From Phycisphaerae bacterium (lineage in GTDB: Bacteria > Planctomycetota > Phycisphaerae > Phycisphaerales > UBA1924), in contig PAKY01000037.1 in NCBI GenBank assembly GCA_002706885.1, positions 1-38,793 on the forward strand: a DNA stretch of 38,793 nucleotides, given 5' to 3'. A model generated the notes under the pieces. The model was given only the letters and a program-made list of their open reading frames with translations, ran no database searches and was not told the origin of the DNA. The position numbers were made by a program, and so were the translations under genes. Of this stretch, positions 6,539 to 38,793 are shown one piece after another; positions within the stretch are counted from its first letter, which is position 1, and every line of letters begins with the position of its first letter.

Positions 6539-8659
<2,121 letters not shown>

Positions 8660-8662
8660 GCG

Positions 8663-10174
8663 ATGGTGGGTCGGCTTGGTTTGCGGGGTGAGCTTTGGCG
8701 GCTCGTGGTGATGGTCGCGTGTGTCCTGACGTCGTTTGAGGCGACAGCGCAGGAAGTACAGAAGGGGCCGTTCACGCTTCACGAGCGGGCGGTGTCGGTA
8801 GAAGTTCCTGAAGGATGGACGCTTGAGCCGCAGCCCCTGGGTGAGGGTGTCGAGGCCCTGTTCGTCATCGCGCGGCACCCGATCAACTCCTCGGTCAGTA
8901 TCGGGTTGTTCCAGACCGATGTTCCGCACGCGGAGATGCTCGACGGCCTCGCTTCGATCTGGCGGAACGCACGGTTCAAGGTCGAGCGCGGCGAACCGGT
9001 GGAATCGTTCGCTGGGCTCGAAGGCGTCGGCGAGCGCGGGGTCATCCGGGAGCGGAACGGCGAGAGCCGGTATGTCTGGATGTTGAAGGACCTCGACGGG
9101 TCCTGGCGGCTCCAGGTGCAGTGCGGGGCGTACGAGGGCGCTCTCGACGACGCGCTTCCGGCGATAGAGCGGATCGTCAGGTCCATCGAGGTCCGTTCGC
9201 CCGACACGATCGCGCCGGTCACGGACGAACCGTCGCGGCACGACCTCGGCCTGATCGCGGTTGACTACCCGGCGAACTGGCGGCCGTACGCGGGTGAGGG
9301 CGGCGTGTCGCTTTCGAATGTCATGGTCGAGATGCCGCAGGACGGGTTCGTTCGATTCGACGTCTACCCGACCACGCTTCCGATCAATGAAGAGTTGATC
9401 TCGACCAAGGCGATGCATGCGTCGCTGGGGTTCCGTTTCGGCGAGGGGCGGGCGATCGATCAACTCGGTTCACGCGGTGGTGAGGGGATGCGTTGGCCGG
9501 TGCTCGGTGACGATGCCGAAGCGACCCATTGGTTTGAGGCGCTGGCGTGGGATCTTGGGGATGGATTTCGCGCAGAGGCTCGCGTCATGACGCCCGTCGG
9601 TCGAGAGGACTTGGTACGGCCCGGCGTCGAGTTGATGATGTCCTCGATCAACGCCGTGCGGCCGGATCAGGCGACGCCGTCTGTCGCTGAGCCGCTCGAC
9701 ATCGAGCTGCCATGGATTCGGTTTGAGTCGCCCTCGAACTGGAGCGTCGAGTCGCCAGTGGAGAGTGCTATCCCGATGGTATTTGTGGGTTCACCTCAGG
9801 ACAGCGCGATCGTCCTCGCATGGATTGAGGGCGAGTCGACTGCGAAGAAGGCCTTGTCGCACCCGTCGATCGCGAGTTGGGGCCCCCCGGTCATGGGCGT
9901 TTCGGATCAGGCGTCCATCGACCGGTTGGGATTGATGACCGGGGTTGGCGAGCGATGGACGACCGGCGATGACGCCGGGGAGGTCGAGGTGGTTCGGTTC
10001 GCCACGTCGACAGGCGGCGGTGTGCTGGTCATCGCGACTGTTGCTCCGACGAACTTCGCGGAGCTGGTCAAGCCGGGCGTCGAACTGGTGCTGGGTTCAC
10101 TCGACGTCGGGCTTGTGGACGGCGGCGAGGGGGCAGAAGCCGACGAGCCCGCCCCAAGCAAGCCGCGTTTTTGA
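8663..10174 (+). CDS. Exported protein with three tandem 154-residue repeats
   Basis: A 503-residue protein with a Sec signal peptide (hydrophobic 12-26, probable cleavage after ATAQ at 30). The mature part consists of three related domains. Each opens with a strand ending in Pro-x-x-Trp: VEVPEGW at 46-52, VDYPANW at 200-206 and FESPSNW at 354-360, a spacing of exactly 154 residues. Each closes with a hydrophobic helix-like segment: IERIVRSIEV (168-177), GVELMMSSINAV (321-332) and GVELVLGSLDV (472-482). The layout recalls PsbP/Mog1-like or DUF1795-like domains, but I cannot assign a family. The start has GGAGGGG 6 bases upstream. It lies 3 bases after acs, suggesting a shared transcript, although a functional link is not evident. 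It is likely periplasmic; function unknown. Confidence 0.82.
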   Translation: MVGRLGLRGELWRLVVMVACVLTSFEATAQEVQKGPFTLHERAVSVEVPEGWTLEPQPLGEGVEALFVIARHPINSSVSIGLFQTDVPHAEMLDGLASIWRNARFKVERGEPVESFAGLEGVGERGVIRERNGESRYVWMLKDLDGSWRLQVQCGAYEGALDDALPAIERIVRSIEVRSPDTIAPVTDEPSRHDLGLIAVDYPANWRPYAGEGGVSLSNVMVEMPQDGFVRFDVYPTTLPINEELISTKAMHASLGFRFGEGRAIDQLGSRGGEGMRWPVLGDDAEATHWFEALAWDLGDGFRAEARVMTPVGREDLVRPGVELMMSSINAVRPDQATPSVAEPLDIELPWIRFESPSNWSVESPVESAIPMVFVGSPQDSAIVLAWIEGESTAKKALSHPSIASWGPPVMGVSDQASIDRLGLMTGVGERWTTGDDAGEVEVVRFATSTGGGVLVIATVAPTNFAELVKPGVELVLGSLDVGLVDGGEGAEADEPAPSKPRF

Positions 10175-10316
10175 GCCGCGGCAAGTGGGTCGAGAGATTC
10201 GTGGAGGCGGGGTTTCGCGACGACGAGGATCGTCCGGACGATCCGGGGAGCCGACTGAAATCGCTTGCACGGGAATTTCGAAACGCCAACCCCTTTCGCG
10301 GACTTCAGAATGCCTG

Positions 10317-10322
10317 TAACGT
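10317..10322 (+). promoter_or_regulatory. Possible -10 element (TAACGT) upstream of amt
   Basis: TAACGT lies 31 bases before the amt start, leaving a short leader that holds a G-run at 10340-10346. No clear -35 box, and no sigma-54 (GG-N10-GC) signature was found in 10175-10353, which is otherwise featureless. Confidence 0.25.
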
Positions 10323-10353
10323 GCCGCATTGATCCGCCTTGGGGGGCTCACGC

Positions 10354-11772
10354 ATGCATCGGTGTCAGAGATGGTTGTCGGCTGGTCTTGTCGTCTGTGT
10401 AGCAGGCGTCGCGTTCGGGCAGGATGCGGTGACTGCGGGTGAGACCGGTCTCGCCAATGTGACCGACCGGTTCGTGGTCGACAACCTCTGGCTGTTGATC
10501 TCGACGGCGCTGGTGTTCATCATGCACCTCGGCTTCGCATCGCTCGAGAGCGGACTGACGCAGGCGAAGAACACGGTCAACATTCTCTTCAAGAACACGG
10601 CGATCGTCGCGATCGGTCTGATCACCTATCTGATCATCGGCTTCAACCTGATGTACCCGGGTGAGGCGTGGACGGTGTCCAACTGGCTTGGCGCGTTCAG
10701 CTTCGGGGCGTCGCCTGCCCATGACGGCTCGGGGATGACACCCGACTACGCGGGGTACACCTACTGGAGCGACTTCATCTTCCAGGCGATGTTCGCGGCG
10801 ACGGCGGCGACGATTGTCTCCGGCGCAGTGGCGGAGCGGATCAAGCTCGGGCCGTTCCTGGTCTTCAGCACGCTGTACGTGGCGATCGTGTATCCGATCA
10901 TCGGATCGTGGAAGTGGGGCGGCGGGTGGCTCGCTGATCGTGGGTTCTACGACTTCGCGGGTTCGACGCTTGTCCACTCGGTCGGGGGTTGGGGAGCGCT
11001 CGCGGGTGTGATCGTCCTCGGGCCTCGGATCGGTAAGTACCTCGTCAATGAAGAGGGCAAGTGCCAGATCCGTCCGTTGCTCGGTCACTCGATGCCGCTC
11101 GCGGCGATCGGCGTGTTCCTGCTGTGGTTCGGTTGGTTCGGGTTCAACGGTGGCTCGGTGCTCAGCGCCGATCCGGGTGATCCATCGGACGGCAACTGGT
11201 ACGGCTTCGGGGGCGTGAGCCTCGTCTTCGTGACGACATCGATCGCCGCGGCCGCGGGGATCATCGGCGCGATGTTCACAAGCTGGATCGTGCAGGCCAA
11301 GCCCGACCTGTCGATGGCGCTCAATGGCGCCCTCGCGGGGCTTGTCGGTATCACCGCTGGGGCGGACGTGATCCGCGTCGAGTGGGCGGTCGTGATCGGT
11401 CTCATCGCGGGCGTCGTTGTCGTGCTCAGCGTGATCGGTTTGGATCGCCTGCGGCTCGATGACCCGGTGGGCGCCATCTCCGTGCATCTCGTGTGTGGCA
11501 TCTGGGGGACGCTTGCGGTCGGGCTCTTCGCGGACGACGCGCGCATGACCCAACTCGACACCGAGGGTGTCGGCGTGGGCACGTTCGGGGACCAGCTCAT
11601 CGGCGTGCTTGCGACTGGAGCGGTGGCGTTCCCCGCGGCGTTGATCTTCTTCTTGATCCTGCGGTTCACGGTCGGCCTGCGCGTGTCGCGAGACGAGGAA
11701 CTCGGCGGCCTGGACTTCGGGGAGCACGCCATGGAGGCGTACGGCGGGTTCCAGGTCTTCCCGGACCACTAG
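10354..11772 (+). CDS. amt: Ammonium transporter, Amt/MEP family
   Basis: A 472-residue inner-membrane channel for ammonium. An N-terminal cleavable signal peptide (about 1-22, FGQ/DA) is followed by eleven predicted helices, as in AmtB. The conserved pore elements are present: WSDFIFQAMFAATAATIVSG (138-157, the external recruitment site region), STLVHSVGGWGALAG with pore His208, and ISVHLVCGIWGTLAVG with the second pore His378. The cytosolic tail ends in the usual ELGGLDFGEHAMEAYG region that P-II proteins contact. The ATG at 10354 has a G-rich run at 10340-10346; a TTG at 10339 is less likely because it lies in that run. The P-II gene follows 168 bases downstream, the standard amt-glnK arrangement. 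Confidence 0.96.
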   Translation: MHRCQRWLSAGLVVCVAGVAFGQDAVTAGETGLANVTDRFVVDNLWLLISTALVFIMHLGFASLESGLTQAKNTVNILFKNTAIVAIGLITYLIIGFNLMYPGEAWTVSNWLGAFSFGASPAHDGSGMTPDYAGYTYWSDFIFQAMFAATAATIVSGAVAERIKLGPFLVFSTLYVAIVYPIIGSWKWGGGWLADRGFYDFAGSTLVHSVGGWGALAGVIVLGPRIGKYLVNEEGKCQIRPLLGHSMPLAAIGVFLLWFGWFGFNGGSVLSADPGDPSDGNWYGFGGVSLVFVTTSIAAAAGIIGAMFTSWIVQAKPDLSMALNGALAGLVGITAGADVIRVEWAVVIGLIAGVVVVLSVIGLDRLRLDDPVGAISVHLVCGIWGTLAVGLFADDARMTQLDTEGVGVGTFGDQLIGVLATGAVAFPAALIFFLILRFTVGLRVSRDEELGGLDFGEHAMEAYGGFQVFPDH

Positions 11773-29863: not shown

Positions 29864-30268
29864 ATGGACCAGCGACATCTTCTCGTGATCGACGACGAGA
29901 TCCACATCGTGACCATTCTGAAGCGGCGGTTCGAGGCCGCGGGCTGGCGGGTGACGCTGGCGAGAGATGGTCGCCAGGGGGTCGAGGCCGCGGTGGCGTG
30001 TACGCCCGACGCGGTCGTGGTCGATTACCAGATGCCCCACATGGACGGGCTCGAGGTCGCGGAGGCCCTGTTCGCGAACGAGACCACGCGCTCGGCGCCG
30101 GTGCTCATGCTGACGGCCCGTGCCCATCTGATCGACGAGGAACGTCTGGCAAGGACGAATATCAGGGATCTTCTTTCCAAGCCCTTCAGCGCTCGTGAGT
30201 TGCTCACACGCGTCGAGAAGGTCGTGGGGTCGGACACGAAGTCCGGCGAAGTGGAGGCGGCCGCATGA
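29864..30268 (+). CDS. Stand-alone response-regulator receiver
   Basis: A 134-residue CheY-type receiver with all the phosphorylation-site residues: acidic pair D10/D11, phospho-acceptor D54 in VVVDYQMPHMDG, Thr84 in LMLTAR and Lys106 in SKPF. There is no output domain. The ATG at 29864 is used; the GTG three bases earlier (29861) lies closer to the GGGAGG ribosome site and is equally possible. The stop overlaps the HD-GYP start (ATGA), so the two are coupled and probably work together. No histidine kinase is in the window. In RpfG, receiver and HD-GYP are one protein; here they are separate. Confidence 0.92.
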   Translation: MDQRHLLVIDDEIHIVTILKRRFEAAGWRVTLARDGRQGVEAAVACTPDAVVVDYQMPHMDGLEVAEALFANETTRSAPVLMLTARAHLIDEERLARTNIRDLLSKPFSARELLTRVEKVVGSDTKSGEVEAAA

Positions 30269-31758
30269 TCGAACCCGCTCCGAACATGGACGTGCTGGGG
30301 CGGGTCGAAGACCGCGCCAGATCGCTCGGCGCCTGGTTCTGCCGATTGACGCAAGACGGACGCCTGCCGGAGGACGTTGAGGGTCCGGCGGACGTTCTTG
30401 CCTGGGCAAAGCCGCAGATCTTCGACCTTTCAGAGCCGGTGATGCGGGTCGGCGGGCCGACTTCGCACGCGATCGCGGTGCTGAACGCCTCGAACGGCGG
30501 CGCCCTGCTCGTCGCGGCTCCGAAACGAGCTCCGGACGGAATGAACGACATCTCGTCGGGCGTCATCTCAGTGCTCGCCGAGTCGTTGAACGACTCGGTG
30601 TCGTCATCGCTTCTCGAGCACGAGTACGGCGTCTTCGCGATGCACCTCGACCACTCGTACGAAGCGACGACCATGCTCTACGAGCTGGCGAGGACGCTCG
30701 GCAACGTCCGCGCCTCGGCCCAGTTCGTCACCGACTCGCTCGGCTCGCTCCGTCGGGTCCTTGGGTGCCGCTGGTCGGCGCTCGACCTGGTCGAGGGCTG
30801 GACGGTCGGCGGGATCGAGGTCCCGCAGTTAACCGTGTCGGCCGACGAGGCGAGACTGATTTCCAGGGTCGCCGCCGAACTCCCGAACATCGTCTCCGAG
30901 TGGGCGCCGCGCGCCCGGCGGGGCATCTGCGTTGGATTCAATGCTCTTGAAGCGGACGAGCTGATCGTTAAGGACGTGCGTCTCGACGGGGAGCGCGCGG
31001 GCTGGATCGTTCTGGGCAAGTCCCTCGACGAGACGGAAGAGAAGGCGAGCAGCTACGACACGCAGGCCGTGGAAATCGTGGCGGGGCGGGCAGCGACGAA
31101 GCTCGAAAGCCTCTGCCTGTTTCGACAACAGGAGAGGACGTACATGGGCTCACTCCAGGCGCTCACGGGGACGCTCGAAGCCAAGGATCCGTACACGCGA
31201 GGCCATTCCGAGCGCGTGGCGCTGCTTGCGCGGATGCTCGCGGAGGCCGTGGAGATGGACCCGGCGGACATCGAACGGATCGATCTCTGTGGAAGGCTGC
31301 ACGACATCGGCAAGATCGGCGTGCCCGACCGGGTGCTCTGCAAGCCCGATCGTCTCACCGACGAAGAGTTTGAGATGATTAAGCAGCATCCGCGGATCGG
31401 GTTCGAGATCCTCGACTCGATCCCCGGTCTCGCTGGAATCCTGCCTGGCGTGCTCCATCACCACGAGCGGTGGGACGGACGCGGCTACCCCGACGGCCTC
31501 GAGGGGGAGGCGATCCCCATGATCGCCCGTGTCTTGGCGCTCGCCGACACCTTCGACGCCATGAGCTCCAACCGCGCCTATCGGCCCAGTCGTCCGCGGA
31601 ACGTCGTGCTCGCGGAGTTCCGCAAGTGCGCGGGCACGCAGTTCGCCCCGGATCTCGTCGAGCCATTCCTCGACATCGACTTCGCACGCTTCGACGAGAT
31701 GCAGCGTGAGCACGCGAGCGGTGAGTTCGGCAACCAGCGCGTTGAACGGGCCGCCTGA
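30265..31758 (+). CDS. HD-GYP domain protein with GAF-like sensor region
   Basis: A 497-residue protein. Residues about 1-300 are a poorly conserved region with GAF-like features (around 150-285), and about 310-470 form an HD-GYP domain. HD dyad His346/Asp347 is in GRLHDIGKIGVPD, and GYP is at 407-409 in the motif HHHERWDGRGYPDG. The metal-binding His and Asp residues are intact, so it should degrade cyclic di-GMP to pGpG or GMP. It overlaps the receiver gene by four bases (ATGA), and a strong terminator follows at 31791, making a two-gene unit. The receiver likely controls it by contact. Localisation is cytosolic; no signal peptide or membrane helix. Confidence 0.93.
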   Translation: MIEPAPNMDVLGRVEDRARSLGAWFCRLTQDGRLPEDVEGPADVLAWAKPQIFDLSEPVMRVGGPTSHAIAVLNASNGGALLVAAPKRAPDGMNDISSGVISVLAESLNDSVSSSLLEHEYGVFAMHLDHSYEATTMLYELARTLGNVRASAQFVTDSLGSLRRVLGCRWSALDLVEGWTVGGIEVPQLTVSADEARLISRVAAELPNIVSEWAPRARRGICVGFNALEADELIVKDVRLDGERAGWIVLGKSLDETEEKASSYDTQAVEIVAGRAATKLESLCLFRQQERTYMGSLQALTGTLEAKDPYTRGHSERVALLARMLAEAVEMDPADIERIDLCGRLHDIGKIGVPDRVLCKPDRLTDEEFEMIKQHPRIGFEILDSIPGLAGILPGVLHHHERWDGRGYPDGLEGEAIPMIARVLALADTFDAMSSNRAYRPSRPRNVVLAEFRKCAGTQFAPDLVEPFLDIDFARFDEMQREHASGEFGNQRVERAA

Positions 31759-31790: not shown

Positions 31791-31820
31791 GGCCCGAGTT
31801 CCTGACTCGGGCCTTTTTTT
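31791..31820 (+). terminator. Intrinsic terminator after the HD-GYP gene
   Basis: A perfect 9-bp stem, GGCCCGAGT (31791-31799) with ACTCGGGCC (31805-31813), loop TCCTG, is followed by seven T residues (31814-31820). A strong rho-independent terminator for the receiver/HD-GYP unit. The remaining bases to 32035 show no gene. Confidence 0.93.
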
Positions 31821-32035: not shown

Positions 32036-33154
32036 TCAATCGACGATCCATCTGGTTGAATCCGGGTCGATGGTCAGCGGGATCTCATCGATCTCATAGA
32101 TGTACCGAAGCTCGGGCGTCGTGAGTATCCGATCGAATACAGCGAAGCCCAGGACCGAACCGTCGAGCTCTTCGTCTACCCCGGCGTAGTCGTACCCCGC
32201 CGGTCCGCCGAAGCGGAAGATGTCGTCGAAGGTGTATTCAAGTCCTCCCTTGAACGATCCGTTCGTCGACGGGGAGTTCACGTTGACTCGGAGCTTCGCG
32301 CCGGACTGTCCGAACGAATACGTCACGAAACTCCAGGTGTTCTCGGGAAGATTGTCGCCGACGAGATAGCTGTCAGGGCCGGAAATCTCGTGATACACGG
32401 CGATCCGATCGTCGTCGATGAGAAAGACGACGTCTCCGTTGCCCTGGCTGAAGTAGCCAGCCTTCATGGCGATCACACGGTCCCAGCGGTCGGCGCCGGG
32501 ATTGACCCAGAAGGTGATCGTCCCGTTGCCGATATCGAAGTTGGCGCCGGCCGCGCTCCCGGCGTTGTCGTTGTTGTCGGAGAACCAGGGGGCGTTGCCG
32601 TCCTCGGGGCCGGTGGTCCTGCCCGAGATGTTGCTGTCGCTGTAGACGCCGCCGAGGGTGGCGGTCGATTCGCTCATGCCGATCGAGCCGCTGCCTTCGT
32701 TGAGCGGGTAGTACCGGATCGGGCCGAGCGACAGCGCTCGCGCGTGCAGGTCCGGCCCGGTGTCGGTGACTTCGCACGCCAGACGGACACGGGCGTTCCC
32801 CGTGTACGCCTCCGCGATCAGGTACGCGCCGCTGGCGGGCAGTTCGGCGGTGGTGAGCTTGAAGTGCGTTGTCTTGTCGGCAAAGTAGGCGGTCGCGAAG
32901 GACCTGTTCAGGATGACGTCGGCGAGAACGTTCCGCGCATCGGTGTACACCCAGTCGCCGTCGTCATCGGTCAGCGTGTTCAGCGCGAGTTCGAACACCG
33001 ATCGAGCCGTCTGCCGCGCACGCGCGGCGTCCGACGCGTCGTGCATCCTGTCGGCCATCGACCGACGCGCCACGGCGCCTCCGATCGCGAGGCTCGCGAC
33101 GATCGCGCTCGTGAGCATCACGAAGACGTAGATCGTCCCACGCCGTCGCTTCAC
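32036..33154 (-). CDS. GspK-like minor pseudopilin with a LamG domain
   Basis: A 372-residue protein and the last gene of the pilus-type cluster. It starts with GTG in the stop of the preceding pilin gene (GTGA overlap). The N-terminus KRRRG/TIYVFVMLTSAIVA resembles the type III signal of GspK proteins: Gly before the cut, a hydrophobic helix and no Glu at +5, as in GspK, followed by an alpha-helical region (about 30-60). Residues about 147-353 form a LamG/concanavalin-like domain: RYYPLNEGSGS, TITFWVNPGADRW, ENTWSFVTYSF, LGFAVFDRILTTPELRYIYE. Typical GspK has an inserted alpha-domain at the tip and no lectin fold. LamG domains often bind carbohydrate or calcium. A tip adhesin or a substrate-recognition role is inferred. 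Confidence 0.75.
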   Translation of the reverse strand: MKRRRGTIYVFVMLTSAIVASLAIGGAVARRSMADRMHDASDAARARQTARSVFELALNTLTDDDGDWVYTDARNVLADVILNRSFATAYFADKTTHFKLTTAELPASGAYLIAEAYTGNARVRLACEVTDTGPDLHARALSLGPIRYYPLNEGSGSIGMSESTATLGGVYSDSNISGRTTGPEDGNAPWFSDNNDNAGSAAGANFDIGNGTITFWVNPGADRWDRVIAMKAGYFSQGNGDVVFLIDDDRIAVYHEISGPDSYLVGDNLPENTWSFVTYSFGQSGAKLRVNVNSPSTNGSFKGGLEYTFDDIFRFGGPAGYDYAGVDEELDGSVLGFAVFDRILTTPELRYIYEIDEIPLTIDPDSTRWIVD

Positions 33155-33714
33155 CGCTGCCACAGCGTGTCTCCGGAGAGGGTTCGCAGGACCGTGATCT
33201 CCGCGAGCGTTTCGCCTCGTCGGCGGACGGTGACCGTGACCCGCCGTCCGACGATGTCCGCGCCGACGAGCGTGTCCGAACCGACCTCGTCGATCATGGC
33301 GATCTCCACCGAACGGCTCCATGTCGCGTCGAACCCGGGCAGCGCGGCCCCCTGGACGTCTTCGGGAGGCGACGCCGACCACTTGTGGTAGTAGTCGATC
33401 GTCGGGAAATCGGCCCGGGGCGAATCCGCGTCGATGCTGGCGACCGTCCTGAGCAGGTTCGCGGTGAACTCGGTCAGGTCAAGAACGAAGTTCGCGTGCA
33501 TTGGATCGATTGGCGCCGTCGCGACCTCGGAGGCAAGATCTTCCGCGAGCCGCCACGCGGCCGCCCGCTCGTTCGTTGTGGTGGTCAGCGCGCGCGCCGC
33601 GGTCGCCGCGTTCATCGCTCCGACCAGCATGAGGGCGACGACGATCGAGGACATGACGACCTCGAGCAGCGTGAAGCAGCGTCGGCGAACACCCGTGGTT
33701 GAGCGACGGTTCAT
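33151..33714 (-). CDS. GspI/PilV-like minor pseudopilin
   Basis: A 187-residue protein with a prepilin N-terminus: Arg-rich leader RRRC, then F-T-L-L-E-V-V-M-S-S and a hydrophobic helix. Glu at +5 of the mature part is present, but the residue before the cut is Cys, where Gly is typical. The C-terminal part is a small beta-rich domain. Relation to GspI or PilV is inferred from size, order and the TLLEV start. The ATG at 33714 follows the GspJ-like gene by 10 bases; its stop overlaps the GspK-like start. It is expected to form the tip complex with the flanking minor pilins. Confidence 0.72.
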   Translation of the reverse strand: MNRRSTTGVRRRCFTLLEVVMSSIVVALMLVGAMNAATAARALTTTTNERAAAWRLAEDLASEVATAPIDPMHANFVLDLTEFTANLLRTVASIDADSPRADFPTIDYYHKWSASPPEDVQGAALPGFDATWSRSVEIAMIDEVGSDTLVGADIVGRRVTVTVRRRGETLAEITVLRTLSGDTLWQR

Positions 33715-33724
33715 GCCTCGATCC

Positions 33725-34246
33725 TCAATTCGTTGACGTGGGGTTGGCCAGCATCTCGACGGTGGTCGTCGCCGTGACGTCGGGGGGACCGGCAATCGTG
33801 AGCTCGATCAGCAGCGAAGGCCTCCGGTCGGCGGGTGTGATCGCATCGACCTGGAAAGAGCCAACGCCCGTGATCAGGTGCCGTTCGTAGGCGCCGTTGC
33901 TCCGGATGAGGACGACTTCCCCCGCGGGTTTGATCAGGTCGTAGCGGACGGTGTCGGCGCCGTCGCTGTCGTCCCGATCGGGGAGCGTCAGCACGAGTGT
34001 TTGTTTCGATCCGGTGATGCTGTACCCGCTCGCGACCGCGACGTCGCGGGCGATCAGGCTGAGCGCGTCGTTCGCTTCGCGGATGCGTACCGCCGGCTCG
34101 TCGGCGGTGGGGAGGGCGAAGCTCGCAAGCGTCAGGGCGCCTCCCATCGCAACGATGATGACCGAGCCGGCCGTCATCGCGACGACGAGCTCGATCAGGG
34201 TGTAGCCGCGCCGGCGGCCACGGATGTGTCGGGGCGTGGGGCTCAT
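33725..34246 (-). CDS. GspJ-like minor pseudopilin
   Basis: A 173-residue prepilin-type protein: leader SPTPRHIRGRRRG, cut before Y-T-L-I-E-L-V-V-A, with Gly at -1 and Glu at +5, then a hydrophobic helix and a beta-rich domain (about 50-170). Position between the H-like and I-like genes and its size suggest GspJ or PilW. The ATG at 34246 overlaps the stop of the GspH-like gene (ATGA). Assignment to the exact minor-pilin class is uncertain, although membership in the family is clear. Confidence 0.75.
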   Translation of the reverse strand: MSPTPRHIRGRRRGYTLIELVVAMTAGSVIIVAMGGALTLASFALPTADEPAVRIREANDALSLIARDVAVASGYSITGSKQTLVLTLPDRDDSDGADTVRYDLIKPAGEVVLIRSNGAYERHLITGVGSFQVDAITPADRRPSLLIELTIAGPPDVTATTTVEMLANPTSTN

Positions 34247-34794
34247 TTCACGTACGTCTTCCCGTTCTCGTCGCAGACGCTCACCGTGACGGAGGCGCTC
34301 CCGCGGGTGATGACCGCCTCGCCGCGCTGGAGCCCGTCTCCCCACGCGTTAAAGACGTAGACGGAGCGTCCGGTCCGGATCGAGGACGAGAACTGCTCGT
34401 CCGTGCCGTCCGTTGGATCGACGTCGGTGGAGGTCGCGGACATCGCCGTGATGTCGAAGGGCGGCAGAGACAGGTTCATCTCCTCCGTGACGACCGCGAA
34501 GGGCGCGAATACAAGGTCGTACGCGGTGATATCGAACGTCGTGGGATGGATCGTCAGGAGGCGCGGGTCGCCCGCCGCCATCGCCTCCTCCCTCGTCTGC
34601 TCTGTGAACTGAGCGAGCGAGTAGGCGGCGGCGCGTGCGCCCGATCGATCGACCGAGGCGGCGAACCGGGGCATGCCGACGGTGGCGACAATGCCCAGGA
34701 TCGCGACCACGATCACGAGCTCGAGCAAAGAAAACGCGCGAGGCCGGGCCTCGCGCGAACAGGCGGTCATGGTTGTTCTCTCGGAACGCGTCAT
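34243..34794 (-). CDS. GspH-like minor pseudopilin
   Basis: A 183-residue protein with the prepilin motif ARPRA/FSLLELVIVVAILGI, Glu at +5 and Ala at -1, and a GspH/FimT-like C-terminal domain: RAAAYSLAQFTEQTREEA after the helix, then beta strands. The ATG at 34794 has GAGGG about 8 bases upstream; a second ATG at 34770 is an alternative. The start comes 16 bases after the GspG-like gene, and the stop overlaps the next start (ATGA). Family membership is secure; the subclass is inferred from the NxxR-like helix and order. Confidence 0.78.
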   Translation of the reverse strand: MTRSERTTMTACSREARPRAFSLLELVIVVAILGIVATVGMPRFAASVDRSGARAAAYSLAQFTEQTREEAMAAGDPRLLTIHPTTFDITAYDLVFAPFAVVTEEMNLSLPPFDITAMSATSTDVDPTDGTDEQFSSSIRTGRSVYVFNAWGDGLQRGEAVITRGSASVTVSVCDENGKTYVK

Positions 34795-34810
34795 GCGCGA
34801 TCCCTCTGGA

Positions 34811-35278
34811 TCAATAGGTGTTGTACGCGACGCCCGCGTCGTCGCTCTCCGTGGCGTTCGCCCGGATGTCGCCGCTCGCGTCGTCGTAGATCCAGCCGAT
34901 GCCCGCGGCGTCGGCGTTCGCGACGCCCGTGGCGCCCCGCTTGGCCCCGACCTTGAGGGCCGGGATGGCCGTGATGTACGGGCCATAGATGTGCGTGGTG
35001 TCCGGCGTGGCCTGCGTGTTTCCGGCGCGGTCGGAGAACTGCGTGAGCGCCGCTTCGAACGTCGCGACGGGCGGGTAGTCGCCGTCGTGCTCGGCTCGGT
35101 AGAGCTCGATCGCGTTGCGAAGGATGGCCAGGTCGGACGCGACGCCGGAGTCTCCGGCGCCTGCTGCGCCGCGGCTCATCCGGGGGATCGCGATGGCCGC
35201 GATCACGCCGAGGATGACCACGACCACGACAAGCTCAATCAAGCTGAAGGCGCGGTGACGGGCGGTTCGGGCGTGCAT
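34811..35278 (-). CDS. GspG-like major pseudopilin
   Basis: A 155-residue protein with the classical motif HRA/FSLIELVVVVVILGVIAA, Glu at +5, then IAIPRMSRG and the GspG-type helix SDLAILRNAIELYRAEHDGDYPP (ALD-helix with the family's Y-x-x-x-x-G-x-Y-P turn). It lacks obvious calcium-loop residues of the full GspG end and has a shorter, Ala/Gly/Asp-rich tail, though its size is normal. The residue before the cut is Ala, not Gly. It should form the main body of the pseudopilus. The ATG at 35278 has AGGAG 8 bases upstream. It is separated from the PilP-like gene by 131 bases, so it may have its own promoter. Confidence 0.88.
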   Translation of the reverse strand: MHARTARHRAFSLIELVVVVVILGVIAAIAIPRMSRGAAGAGDSGVASDLAILRNAIELYRAEHDGDYPPVATFEAALTQFSDRAGNTQATPDTTHIYGPYITAIPALKVGAKRGATGVANADAAGIGWIYDDASGDIRANATESDDAGVAYNTY

Positions 35279-35343
35279 AACGATGCTCCTGTGGTTCGTA
35301 AGGGCCGCCCTTTTGTCGCCCTGAACTGCTCTATCGACCCCGT

Positions 35344-35358
35344 GCAAGGCTTCCTTGC
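35344..35358. promoter_or_regulatory. Inverted repeat upstream of the major pseudopilin gene
   Basis: A perfect 6-bp inverted repeat, GCAAGG (35344-35349) and CCTTGC (35353-35358), loop CTT, lies 66 bases upstream of the GspG-like start in the 131-base gap. No T-tract follows on either strand. It could be a regulator site or an RNA stem. Confidence 0.3.
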
Positions 35359-35409
35359 CCAACGAGTCACGAAATTGGGTTCCGGCCGTAGCCGTCGCCC
35401 GCACGACCG

Positions 35410-35895
35410 TCACACCCCACCATTGAGTGTGAGACGACGGCGTTCCTGGTTTCGTTCCAGGAACACACCCTCGTCATCGATCGAATTCACCTTCCATCCG
35501 GACTGACCGATGGCGTCGCCGACCCGGACCACCGTTCCATTGATGACCGCAGCTCGACGCTTGGATCCGACCATCACGCCGGTAACGACGATGTCGTTGC
35601 TCGTTGTCTCGACGACCTCTTCCTGAGCGACGACGGTCGCGAAGAGCCGGGACAACGCGGGCGTATCAGACTGGGACTGTTCGGCCGTCAGGCGGAGAAG
35701 ATCCGGGACGCTCAGCTTGCTTGATTCCGCTTCGGCGCCCGCGGTCAAGTGTTCGACGACCGCCTCGGTCGCGGCCTGCGCGAGGGCCGCCGATGGGCCA
35801 CCGCCACGGAGAACGAAATGGTCGAAGGCGATGAGACCCGGTCCACCGAGGAGGACGAGGGCGAGAAGCTTCGGTCGACGTCCGAGTTTCGACAT
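35410..35895 (-). CDS. PilP/GspB-like inner-membrane pilus assembly protein
   Basis: A 161-residue protein with one N-terminal membrane helix (about 9-24), a helical region rich in Ala, Glu and Leu (about 35-95) and a C-terminal beta domain (about 100-157): VVTGVMVGSKRRAAVINGTVVRVGD, then VNSIDDEGVFLER. This compact domain resembles the HR/GspB-PilP type fold, which links the inner-membrane platform to the secretin. No secretin gene is in the window, so its partner is unseen. It starts 36 bases after the PilO-like gene and has a GAGG ribosome site. GspC-like proteins have a similar architecture, so the label is by class only. Confidence 0.62.
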   Translation of the reverse strand: MSKLGRRPKLLALVLLGGPGLIAFDHFVLRGGGPSAALAQAATEAVVEHLTAGAEAESSKLSVPDLLRLTAEQSQSDTPALSRLFATVVAQEEVVETTSNDIVVTGVMVGSKRRAAVINGTVVRVGDAIGQSGWKVNSIDDEGVFLERNQERRRLTLNGGV

Positions 35896-35931
35896 GGATG
35901 CCTCATCGGCCGGTCATCGGGTCTAGACGAG

Positions 35932-36492
35932 TCAGCCCGAGGCCGACCCGTCCGACAGCGTGGTAGAAGTGCGCCAAACCAACCCGAGCCGCAGTCCGAG
36001 CGTGTTATCCGACTGTCGGTCGATCGTGAAGCTCCGTACCGCGGCCTCCGGAATTCGCTGCCTCAATTCGGCGAGGAAGACACGGAACCGCTCCGCCCCG
36101 CACGTGCCGACCAGGTCGACCGGAACGTCCGTCCATGACTCGGCCGGCTGCGGGTCGCCCGGGCTGATCCGTTCGATCAAGATCCCGGCGTCGTCGGCCA
36201 TTTCGATCAATCGCTCCAGAAAGCCGTTGATCGAGGCGTCGGACATCGGCTGCAGCGCAAAGGCCTCGACCTCCGCCTGCAGCCGGTTCGCCCGTTCCTG
36301 CTCCTCGGCTGATCGGCGTTCGGCGAGGTCGTACGCCTGGCGAAGCGACACGATCCGCTCGGCCTGAGCTCGCTCCTCGGCGTGCGCCTGCAGCAGCGGG
36401 GACAGCCCGAGGAACCAGGCGGCAGAAACCATCAGGCCGATCAGCGTCGTTCCGATGACGCCTTCGATGTTCATGTTGGAGAGGCGGTTCAA
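35932..36492 (-). CDS. PilO-like pilus platform protein
   Basis: A 186-residue protein with one membrane helix (about 12-33), a coiled-coil region (about 36-75, Glu/Arg/Ala-rich) and a ferredoxin-like C-terminal domain (about 85-180): IERISPGDPQPAESWTDVPV and VDLVGTCGAERFRVFLAELR. It overlaps the PilN-like stop (ATGA). PilN and PilO form the periplasmic heterodimer of the type IV pilus platform; GspM has the same layout in type II systems. The start could also be the second Met (MNIEGV), 6 residues later. Confidence 0.75.
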   Translation of the reverse strand: MNRLSNMNIEGVIGTTLIGLMVSAAWFLGLSPLLQAHAEERAQAERIVSLRQAYDLAERRSAEEQERANRLQAEVEAFALQPMSDASINGFLERLIEMADDAGILIERISPGDPQPAESWTDVPVDLVGTCGAERFRVFLAELRQRIPEAAVRSFTIDRQSDNTLGLRLGLVWRTSTTLSDGSASG

Positions 36493-37088
36493 GGCGTGCC
36501 CCCCGTTGAGGTTGCGTTCGGCACCTCGCCGACCGGCCGTGGCGCGATGGCGCAGGACATATCAAACTCCACGACGCCGCCGGAACGATGGCTGGATCCG
36601 ACATCGACGGTGACAAAGAGCGGGCTCGATTCGATAGCGAGCGCTGTCTCAGACACCTCGCGAGCCGACGGCGCGACGCCTCGTATACGAAGCGTGTAAC
36701 CCGGATGATCGCTCCGTGCGAGTGGCTGAAGACCGAGCGAAATCAGTGTCGCACGGTCACCGATCGCGTCGGCGAGCACCGGGAACAAGAGGCTCCAGTC
36801 GGGATGGCTGGTCAGGCTCTGAACAACGCTCAGGCGGGACTGCCACATCGTCGCGCTCGCCGCGGCGGCGTCGGCGGTGTCCTCGAGCTCCGCGATCTTC
36901 GCCTGCAGCGATCGCGCTTCTTCACCGAGCGTCAGGTACCGAGCGCCGGTCTGGTACGCGGCGGGGATACACACCGCGAGCGTCATGACGCCCATCGCGG
37001 CGAGCGCTGCGCCCCAACGGGCTCGGCGTCGTGTCCTCGCCGCGTCCGCGAGACGGACGGCCGGGATGAATGAGGGGAGCGTGGTCAT
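36489..37088 (-). CDS. PilN-like pilus platform protein
   Basis: A 199-residue protein: a short Arg-rich cytosolic N-terminus, one membrane helix (about 27-46), a coiled-coil (about 55-85) and a C-terminal ferredoxin-like domain (about 95-180), with LISLGLQPLARSDHPGYTLRIRGVA and VEFDMSCAIAP. This fits PilN (or the C-terminal part of GspL). The cytosolic N-terminal tail would bind PilM, encoded directly before it with overlapping start and stop (ATGA). The conserved INLL motif of classical PilN is not evident. Confidence 0.75.
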   Translation of the reverse strand: MTTLPSFIPAVRLADAARTRRRARWGAALAAMGVMTLAVCIPAAYQTGARYLTLGEEARSLQAKIAELEDTADAAAASATMWQSRLSVVQSLTSHPDWSLLFPVLADAIGDRATLISLGLQPLARSDHPGYTLRIRGVAPSAREVSETALAIESSPLFVTVDVGSSHRSGGVVEFDMSCAIAPRPVGEVPNATSTGGTP

Positions 37089-38167
37089 GCGGCGTGCTCC
37101 ATCTCGTCCACTGAGCTCGATACGTCGGAGGGCCCGTTGTGTCTCCCGTGTCGATGGGTGTCCGCGCGTTCAGGGCGGGTCCAATCGGCGCGGGCGAGCC
37201 CCGCGGCGGTCGCCATCGACGCGTCGAGGCCACCCGCGACGCTGATCGGGACACAGATCACGCCGACGTGCGCCTGGAGCCAATCCAGCAGTTCGCTGTC
37301 GGACGCGAAGCCGCCGGCGATGTGGACGAGGTTGAAGTCGCTCTGTCGCCAGCACTCCTGGGCATAGACGCGCGTCGTTTGGATCGCTCGCGACGCGGAT
37401 TCTCCGTACGCCTGGAGCATGCCCGAAACGACGCTCGCGATCTCGGGCGCCTCTTCGCGTCCCGCTCCGAGCATCCAGCCGGTGTGCGTGTGGTCGAGCT
37501 CGCACGCTTCGGCGCAGGCGGCGTGGAGCGACGCCGCTCCGGCGCCCTTCACGCTCCGCTGGAACAGCACCCTGTCGTTGTGCGAGATGATGACCTCGCA
37601 CGACGACCAACCCAGATCGACGACGATGGTCGGTTCGGTGTCCTCGGGGCTGTCGATGGCATGTGTTCGCGCGACTGCGGCGGGGCCGGGGCAGAGTCCA
37701 AGGACATCGAACCCTTCGTCAGACCACGCGTCGAGGACCGTCGTCGCGGCGCGGTGCTCGCACGAGACGGCGATCACGCGACCGCGCGCGGGGGGTCCCG
37801 CTCCGCGTGGCGACCACCACGTGAGCTCGAAGCTCGACGGATCGATCCGTCGGGCGCGGGCCAGTTCGCCGCGAGCGATCGCGGTGAGTGGGGCGCCAGA
37901 GTCCTCGGGGGGGAGTTCGATCATTGCGGACGGCGTCATGGACTTCGGAGCGCCCAGGACGACCCGCTTCCCAACGAAGCCTCGGCGCCGGACGATCGCC
38001 GCGACTTCTCGCAACTCGTCCGCTCCGTACGGTTCGCGGGGTTCGCCTCGGGGAAGGGACAGCGTGCGAAGCGGGTGGCCCGCTCCGTCGAACTGGACGG
38101 CGCGCACATGGCTCGCCCCGAGATCCACCCCGATCAACGAGGGCCTGTTCGGCTTGGGCATCTTCAT
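37085..38167 (-). CDS. PilM-like actin-fold ATPase
   Basis: A 360-residue cytosolic protein of the actin/FtsA-like fold. Phosphate-1 loop IGVDLGASHVRAVQF (12-26) has the D-x-G signature; the phosphate-2 loop is VVDLGWSSCEV; the adenosine loop is VHIAGGFASDSELL. PilM binds the cytosolic tail of PilN. It overlaps the gspF stop by four bases (ATGA) and is followed by PilN with the same overlap, so F-M-N-O are tightly coupled. It is close in length to PilM of type IV pili (about 350). The C-terminal 30 residues are polar and His-rich. Alternative: GspL cytosolic domain; the separate N gene favours PilM. Confidence 0.83.
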   Translation of the reverse strand: MKMPKPNRPSLIGVDLGASHVRAVQFDGAGHPLRTLSLPRGEPREPYGADELREVAAIVRRRGFVGKRVVLGAPKSMTPSAMIELPPEDSGAPLTAIARGELARARRIDPSSFELTWWSPRGAGPPARGRVIAVSCEHRAATTVLDAWSDEGFDVLGLCPGPAAVARTHAIDSPEDTEPTIVVDLGWSSCEVIISHNDRVLFQRSVKGAGAASLHAACAEACELDHTHTGWMLGAGREEAPEIASVVSGMLQAYGESASRAIQTTRVYAQECWRQSDFNLVHIAGGFASDSELLDWLQAHVGVICVPISVAGGLDASMATAAGLARADWTRPERADTHRHGRHNGPSDVSSSVDEMEHAA

Positions 38168-38793
38168 CGCACGCCTCCCGATCCCGCCATGGACGTCAGG
38201 TCGAACAGCGGAAGGAACATGCTCAGCGCGACGAAGCCGATCACGATGCCCATGAGGACGATCACCAGCGGCTCGATGACGGTCGAAAGCGATCGCATGG
38301 CCTGGGCGTTGTCCTCGTCGAGGTGCTCCGCGGTGGTTGTCAGCACGCTTCCCAGGCGAGCAGTGGCCTCACCGTTCCGAATGGCTTCGATGATCGCGGG
38401 GGTCAGCAATGTGGTCCGAGAAATCGAACTCGTGAACGACTCGCCGTCCACGAGGTCGGCCTGCGCCTTCGCGAGCAGATCGCGATAGGCCGCGTGTCCC
38501 ATCGACGCCTCGGTCAGGTCAAGCGCCTCCACGAGCGGCACGCGGGCCTCGAGGAGCACGCCCAGCACCCGGGCCAGCCGCGCAGAGTAGAGCGATCGCA
38601 TGACGCCGCCGACGCCCGGCACGGACAGCATCACCCGACCCATCCAGTCGGCGCCCTGATTCGTTCGCAGCGCCACGAAGAGCCCGATAGCGCAGAGCAG
38701 CAGGATCGGACCGACAGCCCACCAGTAGGAGCGGACGAAGGCGCTGATCGCGAGCAGCCCCTCGGTGGTCGCCGGAAGCGGCGCGTTAAGCGC
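38164..38793 (-). CDS. GspF/PilC-type inner-membrane platform protein (partial)
   Basis: Only the C-terminal 209 residues are in the window; the frame runs open through the right edge, so the start lies outside. One membrane helix near the edge (VRSYWWAVGPILLLCAIGLF), then the second GspF cytosolic repeat: LYSARLARVLGVLLEARVPL, VEALDLTEASMGH, SSISRTTLLTPAIIEAIRNG, NGEATARLGSVL, then the last helix VIEPLVIVLMGIVIGFVALS. This is the strongly conserved T2SF domain ending. It forms the base of the pilus with the ATPase (GspE/PilB), which is probably upstream outside the window. It overlaps pilM by ATGA. Confidence 0.9.
   Translation of the reverse strand, partial: ALNAPLPATTEGLLAISAFVRSYWWAVGPILLLCAIGLFVALRTNQGADWMGRVMLSVPGVGGVMRSLYSARLARVLGVLLEARVPLVEALDLTEASMGHAAYRDLLAKAQADLVDGESFTSSISRTTLLTPAIIEAIRNGEATARLGSVLTTTAEHLDEDNAQAMRSLSTVIEPLVIVLMGIVIGFVALSMFLPLFDLTSMAGSGGVR

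Follow-up and report, generated by a model that had tools for sequence, protein, structure and literature searches.

What does a row of type IV pilin genes assemble when the last of them encodes a pilin with a lectin-like domain, and what would that domain be for? The question is raised by a contig of a Phycisphaerae bacterium (assembly GCA_002706885.1, contig PAKY01000037.1), which was analysed entire as a window of 38,793 nucleotides (contig C37 of the genome). Its minus strand carries genes for the proteins F, M, N, O, P, G, H, J, I and K, in that order, with the F gene truncated at the contig end; all were present as a preliminary description, made from the sequence, had stated. Our answer, to which we assign a probability of about 0.62, is that the locus encodes a type IV filament regulated by cyclic diguanylate (c-di-GMP), with a tip pilin, K, built to take plug-in domains, in this case a probable lectin.

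K has a prepilin-type start, RRRG/TIYVF (the slash marks the cleavage site), with F rather than Glu at residue +5. The missing Glu had been recognized in the preliminary description, and none of 58 scorable relatives has it either. A Pfam search gave no match of K to PF07963 (N_methyl). The start codon is GTG, and an alternative in-frame GTG at 33163 is possible. Pfam placed Laminin_G_3 at residues 195-348 with E 7e-10 and a score of 39.7 bits, above the curated cut-off of 27.6. In an AlphaFold model built with 13 sequences (mean predicted local distance difference test score, pLDDT, 80.9), a helix at residues 5-63 is followed by strands at 75-82, 85-93, 110-118 and 121-131, a jelly roll at about 147-340, a helix at 346-353 and strands at 360-362 and 368-371. 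When compared by VIA-align with solved lectin-type domains, the jelly roll gave Z scores of about 20, with root-mean-square deviations (rmsd) of 2.2-2.9 A across some 195 residues. Examples are the arabinanase AbnA, whose isolated domain 4 (5hon) matched with Z 20.0 and rmsd 2.9 over 195 residues, and clostridial toxin binding domains, whose lectin-like halves matched with Z 18-20. A toxin reading of these top matches to clostridial neurotoxin binding domains was rejected, only the lectin-type jelly roll being common and no other toxin part being seen. Such matches to a predicted structure show the fold, not the function. K thus joins a pilin fold to a domain that is not pilus-specific, as modular pilins do, and the LamG module is genuine, not a chance match. 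The LamG/concanavalin-like part claimed earlier for the last pilin therefore stands, and the jelly roll is predicted within residues 147-353, where a structure prediction had been proposed to look for it.

The position of the module in the pilin fold was read with the help of a K protein that has none. The module-less K of locus L123 gave a confident pilin fold by AlphaFold (mean pLDDT 94.1), with strands at 80-86, 89-96, 111-119, 122-132, 140-142 and 148-150. It matched PilA of the Streptococcus sanguinis tip complex with Z 9.7 and Thermus thermophilus ComZ with Z 9.2, and it aligned to ComZ residues 7 to 526, a span that includes ComZ's inserted solenoid. Taken together, the strand order and the ComZ alignment, rather than strand pairing, indicate that the LamG module of the window's K follows the fourth strand of the pilin part and precedes its last strands. 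This predicted position agrees with that in ComZ, where the extra domain separates the last pilin strand from the penultimate one, and differs from that in GspK, in which a helical insert lies between strands 3 and 4 (PMC6561018). GspK is like K in being the last pilin of its set, in lacking Glu at +5 and in having a domain inserted in the pilin fold. K was nevertheless not identifiable as GspK: T2SSK gave no match in Pfam, the NCBIfam GspK model scored only E 0.063 (12.8 bits against a cut-off of 130), and GspK was absent from the named matches of the L123 pilin model, save for one XcpGHIJK model chain (Z 6.6). The reading of K as a GspK-like protein is accordingly given up, the pilin part being nearest to PilA of S. 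sanguinis and ComZ of Thermus. By sequence, no significant match was found between the window's K and ComZ (E 0.19). A profile search with beta-type K proteins did not find ComZ, so that homology of beta-type K to ComZ was rejected at the sequence level.

Other K proteins carry other domains at this site. Among 73 K proteins, LamG was found in 17 and CBM_4_9 in 6; about 38 had a further type of module with weak Bactofilin matches, and about 9 had none. The Bactofilin-type modules are probably beta-solenoids, judging by those weak matches and a repeat-like sequence. The module-less proteins are 81-212 residues long, mostly 130-153, and some are possibly truncated by a contig end. In alignments the pilin stem is common to all K types and a short C-terminal tail to most. 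When module states were mapped on a tree of F, M and G (63 rows), at least 13 changes were required; LamG alone needed at least 4, of which 3 were forced by high-support branches. Like states lie together on the tree, the count of changes being lower than in any shuffle, and module exchange is therefore slow, not constant. That LamG might prove unlinked to pilin genes elsewhere, a possibility raised in the preliminary description, is answered by the 17 LamG-bearing K genes. The window's K does carry LamG, as was stated there, and LamG is one of at least four states of the slot. Some relatives have tandem K pairs (L185:6513-9140 and G047:C56:12887-15196). Locus L184, from a related genome, has a second, paralogous minor pilin set whose last gene (6858-10700) encodes a K-like protein of 1280 residues with three LamG stretches, and similar proteins of 1100-1480 residues occur in several genomes of the order.

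The pilin genes belong to a conserved locus. Loci were collected through PilM orthologues (about 20 related genomes) and through the G pilin (80 named loci), and were read with per-gene profiles. The relatives of the G pilin are nearly all from Planctomycetota, mostly from Phycisphaerales metagenome-assembled genomes (MAGs). The full locus has 13 genes, in the order PAS histidine kinase, STAS, MshEN-type ATPase (E), F, M, N, O, P, G, H, J, I and K. The order G-H-J-I-K was found in 66 loci and the complete 13-gene order in 50; in 39 loci a convergent HD-GYP gene with a receiver gene directly follows K, and the window likewise has this pair (29864-31758). K profile matches at E 0.001 or better were found in 149 of 198 sampled genomes of the class, many of them strong, the weakest covering the pilin helix only; in the wider phylum strong matches were few. 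The preliminary description had presented the cluster as a hybrid of a type IV pilus platform and type II secretion pilins. A hybrid specific to the window is ruled out by the recurring loci, since M, N and O together with G, H, I, J and K form one conserved locus of the class; the search for the same order and LamG fusion in other Phycisphaerae, suggested there as a check, was by the same counts positive. Records titled Leptolyngbya sp. and Cyanobacteria bacterium (loci L132 and L159) carry the Phycisphaerae locus, and these MAGs are probably mislabelled or mixed.

A search with this genome's seven secretins found no secretin in the Phycisphaerae cluster loci, and PilT was not found in them. 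In this genome the seven secretin genes and PilB/PilT-type genes lie elsewhere, and contig C52 has another pilin-ATPase-platform-secretin set. In L187:1-15977, a cluster found in a different class of the phylum, there is a PilT-type ATPase inside and a secretin right after P, and K precedes I. The presence of both genes there suggests descent from a complete pilus system, whose secretin and PilT would act in trans in Phycisphaerae.

The regulatory part of the locus was overlooked in the preliminary description, which had the pilin and platform genes right. In relatives, the cluster ATPase matches MshEN (E 3e-14), and the ATPase of L111 scores 63.7 bits with the NCBIfam c-di-GMP_motif model against a cut-off of 38. 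MshEN c-di-GMP receptors have two 24-residue motifs separated by a 5-residue linker (PMC5013675). Of 78 cluster ATPases, 71 have motif I; a second copy stands 29 residues on, which is the MshEN spacing so described. The kinases in the relatives' loci have PAS, HisKA and HATPase domains, and a plausible control circuit emerges when STAS, receiver and HD-GYP are added. Because relatives carry all these genes beside an MshEN ATPase, control of extension by c-di-GMP and two-component signalling is probable.

Systems of the type IV filament superfamily are termed generic when ATPase, platform and major pilin occur together (PMC6668835). F and G lie in the window, and the ATPase adjoins F in relatives. 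The PilM-N-O-P alignment complex, a type IVa feature, is present too, with weak but positional matches for M, N and O and a P-like protein next. On this reading the window would hold two thirds, the distal part, of a type IV filament locus conserved in Phycisphaerae. In this locus a GspE/PilB-type ATPase, a GspF/PilC platform and PilM-N-O-P would assemble a filament of G pilin. The minor pilins H, J, I and K would start and cap the filament, with K outermost and its plug-in site, which follows the fourth strand and precedes the last ones, filled in relatives by another domain or none. Display of LamG at the tip is most plausible because PilC and ComZ offer precedents and because the module is bulky. 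The LamG/ConA-type jelly roll most likely serves adhesion to surfaces or extracellular polysaccharide by binding carbohydrate, given its type of fold and its alternation with CBM_4_9. Extension would probably be set by c-di-GMP and two-component signalling, and the outer-membrane secretin would be supplied from elsewhere in the genome. Several points weigh against this reading. This genome's ATPase, STAS and kinase genes, expected beyond the contig end, were not found, a STAS search giving only a weak match elsewhere, and contigs C127, C31 and C69 were inspected for the missing 5' part without result. The second copy of the MshEN motif often lacks the final Gln in cluster ATPases, so that c-di-GMP binding may be weak. 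A LamG fold alone is no proof of sugar binding, and the nearest score of G is to GspG, so that a short pseudopilus is possible.

The last of these points leads to type II secretion, in which a short periplasmic pseudopilus would export folded enzymes and the K module would recruit or sense substrates, for example by binding the polysaccharide being degraded. With G go H, O and F, which score nearest GspH, GspM and GspF, as well as a pilin order like that of type II secretion systems and the PilP/GspC-type protein. We nevertheless think this unlikely, given that no secretin was found in the Phycisphaerae cluster loci, that K is not GspK by sequence, that PilM and PilN are separate with no fused GspL, that the related L187 cluster contains PilT, and that this genome has the separate set on contig C52.

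Two further explanations concern the module itself. The LamG part might be a structural spacer or a protein-protein contact domain with no extracellular ligand; LamG domains are common, likeness of fold shows no function, and the module-less K proteins manage without any module. Set against this, the folds that take turns in the slot are unrelated, and two are of a carbohydrate-binding type, which is what shifting specificity would produce; the lectin module of S. sanguinis PilC binds glycans (PMC9934059), so that a mere spacer seems quite improbable. Alternatively, the filament could serve DNA uptake, with K as a ComZ-like DNA receptor at the tip and the modules as variant DNA- or cell-surface-binding tips. 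The carbohydrate-binding type of LamG and CBM_4_9, the absence of competence genes from the locus and the failure of the beta-type K profile to match ComZ make this very unlikely, even though the pilin part and insertion point of K are ComZ-like (PMC6561018) and ComEC is encoded in this genome; ComEC is widespread, being present in 10 of 14 control genomes.

The features of the window are collected in Table 1. The I-like pilin has Cys at -1 of the prepilin cleavage site (RRRC/FTLLE), a position taken by Gly or Ala in nearly all relatives. Across the window and loci such as L123, L129, L158, L159, L162 and L139, J occurs as a short form of about 150-175 residues, as in the window, or as long forms of 300-580 residues with an additional C-terminal part, and the longest J proteins often co-occur with a module-less or CBM K.

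Table 1. Features of the filament locus in the window and the evidence for each.
Feature	Positions	Strand	Evidence and remarks
F, PilC/GspF platform protein, C-terminal half	38164-38793	-	Pfam T2SSF E 4.4e-22; NCBIfam GspF E 4.7e-42; cut by contig end
M, PilM-like	37085-38167	-	NCBIfam pilM E 3.5e-7
N, PilN-like	36489-37088	-	Pfam PilN E 1.8e-4
O, PilO/GspM-like	35932-36474	-	NCBIfam GspM_XpsM E 9.6e-9; Pfam PilO E 0.0011
P, PilP/GspC-type periplasmic protein, candidate secretin adaptor	35410-35895	-	weak C-terminal matches Y4YQ_C, CdsD_C, T2SSB; position conserved
G, major pilin	34811-35278	-	NCBIfam GspG E 1.5e-10, below cut-off; orthologues 49-61% identical
H-like minor pilin	34243-34794	-	NCBIfam GspH E 1.1e-7, below cut-off
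J-like minor pilin, short form, 173 residues	33725-34246	-	N_methyl E 3.8e-6; many relatives 300-580 residues
I-like minor pilin	33151-33714	-	PilV/GspI-type N terminus; orthologues in relatives
K, modular minor pilin, 372 residues	32036-33154	-	last pilin gene; prepilin-type start without +5 Glu; position conserved in 66 loci
K pilin stem, residues 1-131, long helix and four strands	32762-33154	-	AlphaFold; elements recur in module-less K of L123
K LamG jelly-roll module, residues about 147-340	32135-32716	-	Laminin_G_3; AlphaFold; VIA-align Z about 20
K C-terminal strands, residues 360-371, conserved tail closing pilin part	32042-32077	-	alignments; 360-362 and 368-371 correspond to 140-142 and 148-150 of module-less K
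Intrinsic-terminator-like hairpin 3' of HD-GYP gene	31791-31820	+	10-pair stem, then T7
HD-GYP protein, convergent to pilin genes	30265-31758	+	Pfam HD_5 E 1.2e-35; motifs HDIGK, HHERWDGRGYP
Response regulator receiver, overlaps HD-GYP gene	29864-30268	+	Pfam Response_reg E 3.2e-22; kept beside HD-GYP in relatives

Previous work showed that modular pilins, including ones with PF13385, are widespread (PMC8179133), and a lectin-type pilin with demonstrated glycan binding has been described (PMC9934059). The fusion of a LamG/ConA-type lectin to a pilin, put forward in the preliminary description as the window's best candidate for an undescribed system, is thus already known. The lectin pilin PilC of the S. 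sanguinis PilA-PilB-PilC tip complex is likewise a minor pilin that bears a lectin module of ConA type and joins small minor pilins at the tip (PMC9934059, PMC8179133), and the PilA of that complex is the match found above for the pilin part of K. S. sanguinis is, however, a monoderm, and according to those papers the PilC modules are C-terminal on a very short pilin part, whereas the K module lies inside the pilin fold and the locus is a diderm one with PilM-N-O-P and c-di-GMP-type regulators. ComZ, also a proposed tip pilin, shares with K the site of the extra domain and differs in its occupant, a large DNA-binding solenoid instead of LamG (PMC6561018). The Kil/Tad pili of Myxococcus resemble the present system in that one filament machine has exchangeable minor pilin tips exposing variable domains (PMC12075869); there several tips occur per genome, whereas Phycisphaerae normally have one K per locus, differing between lineages. 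No description of LamG pilins or of this locus in planctomycetes was found in the literature searched, and a possible LamG precedent in MshP/MshQ of the MSHA system could not be confirmed. What appears to be new is a locus found throughout the class, a single K-pilin slot with differing domains, and a pilin type undetected by the usual signature.

The survey of modular pilins relied on the N_methyl/IPR012902 signal (PMC8179133), and surveys based on that signature would miss pilins of the K type. Natural variation among the K proteins has given a series with a constant filament machine and alternating tip domains, and this makes the idea of grafted pilin modules shown at the tip directly testable. 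It is possible, and in our view only slightly less likely than not, that Phycisphaerae share an inherited c-di-GMP-controlled pilus with one slot in its cap pilin, and that lineages swap lectin, solenoid, CBM or no module there, re-targeting the filament to other polysaccharides or surfaces. The locus is a concrete candidate for how these planctomycetes, a class known mostly from metagenomes, attach to polysaccharide.

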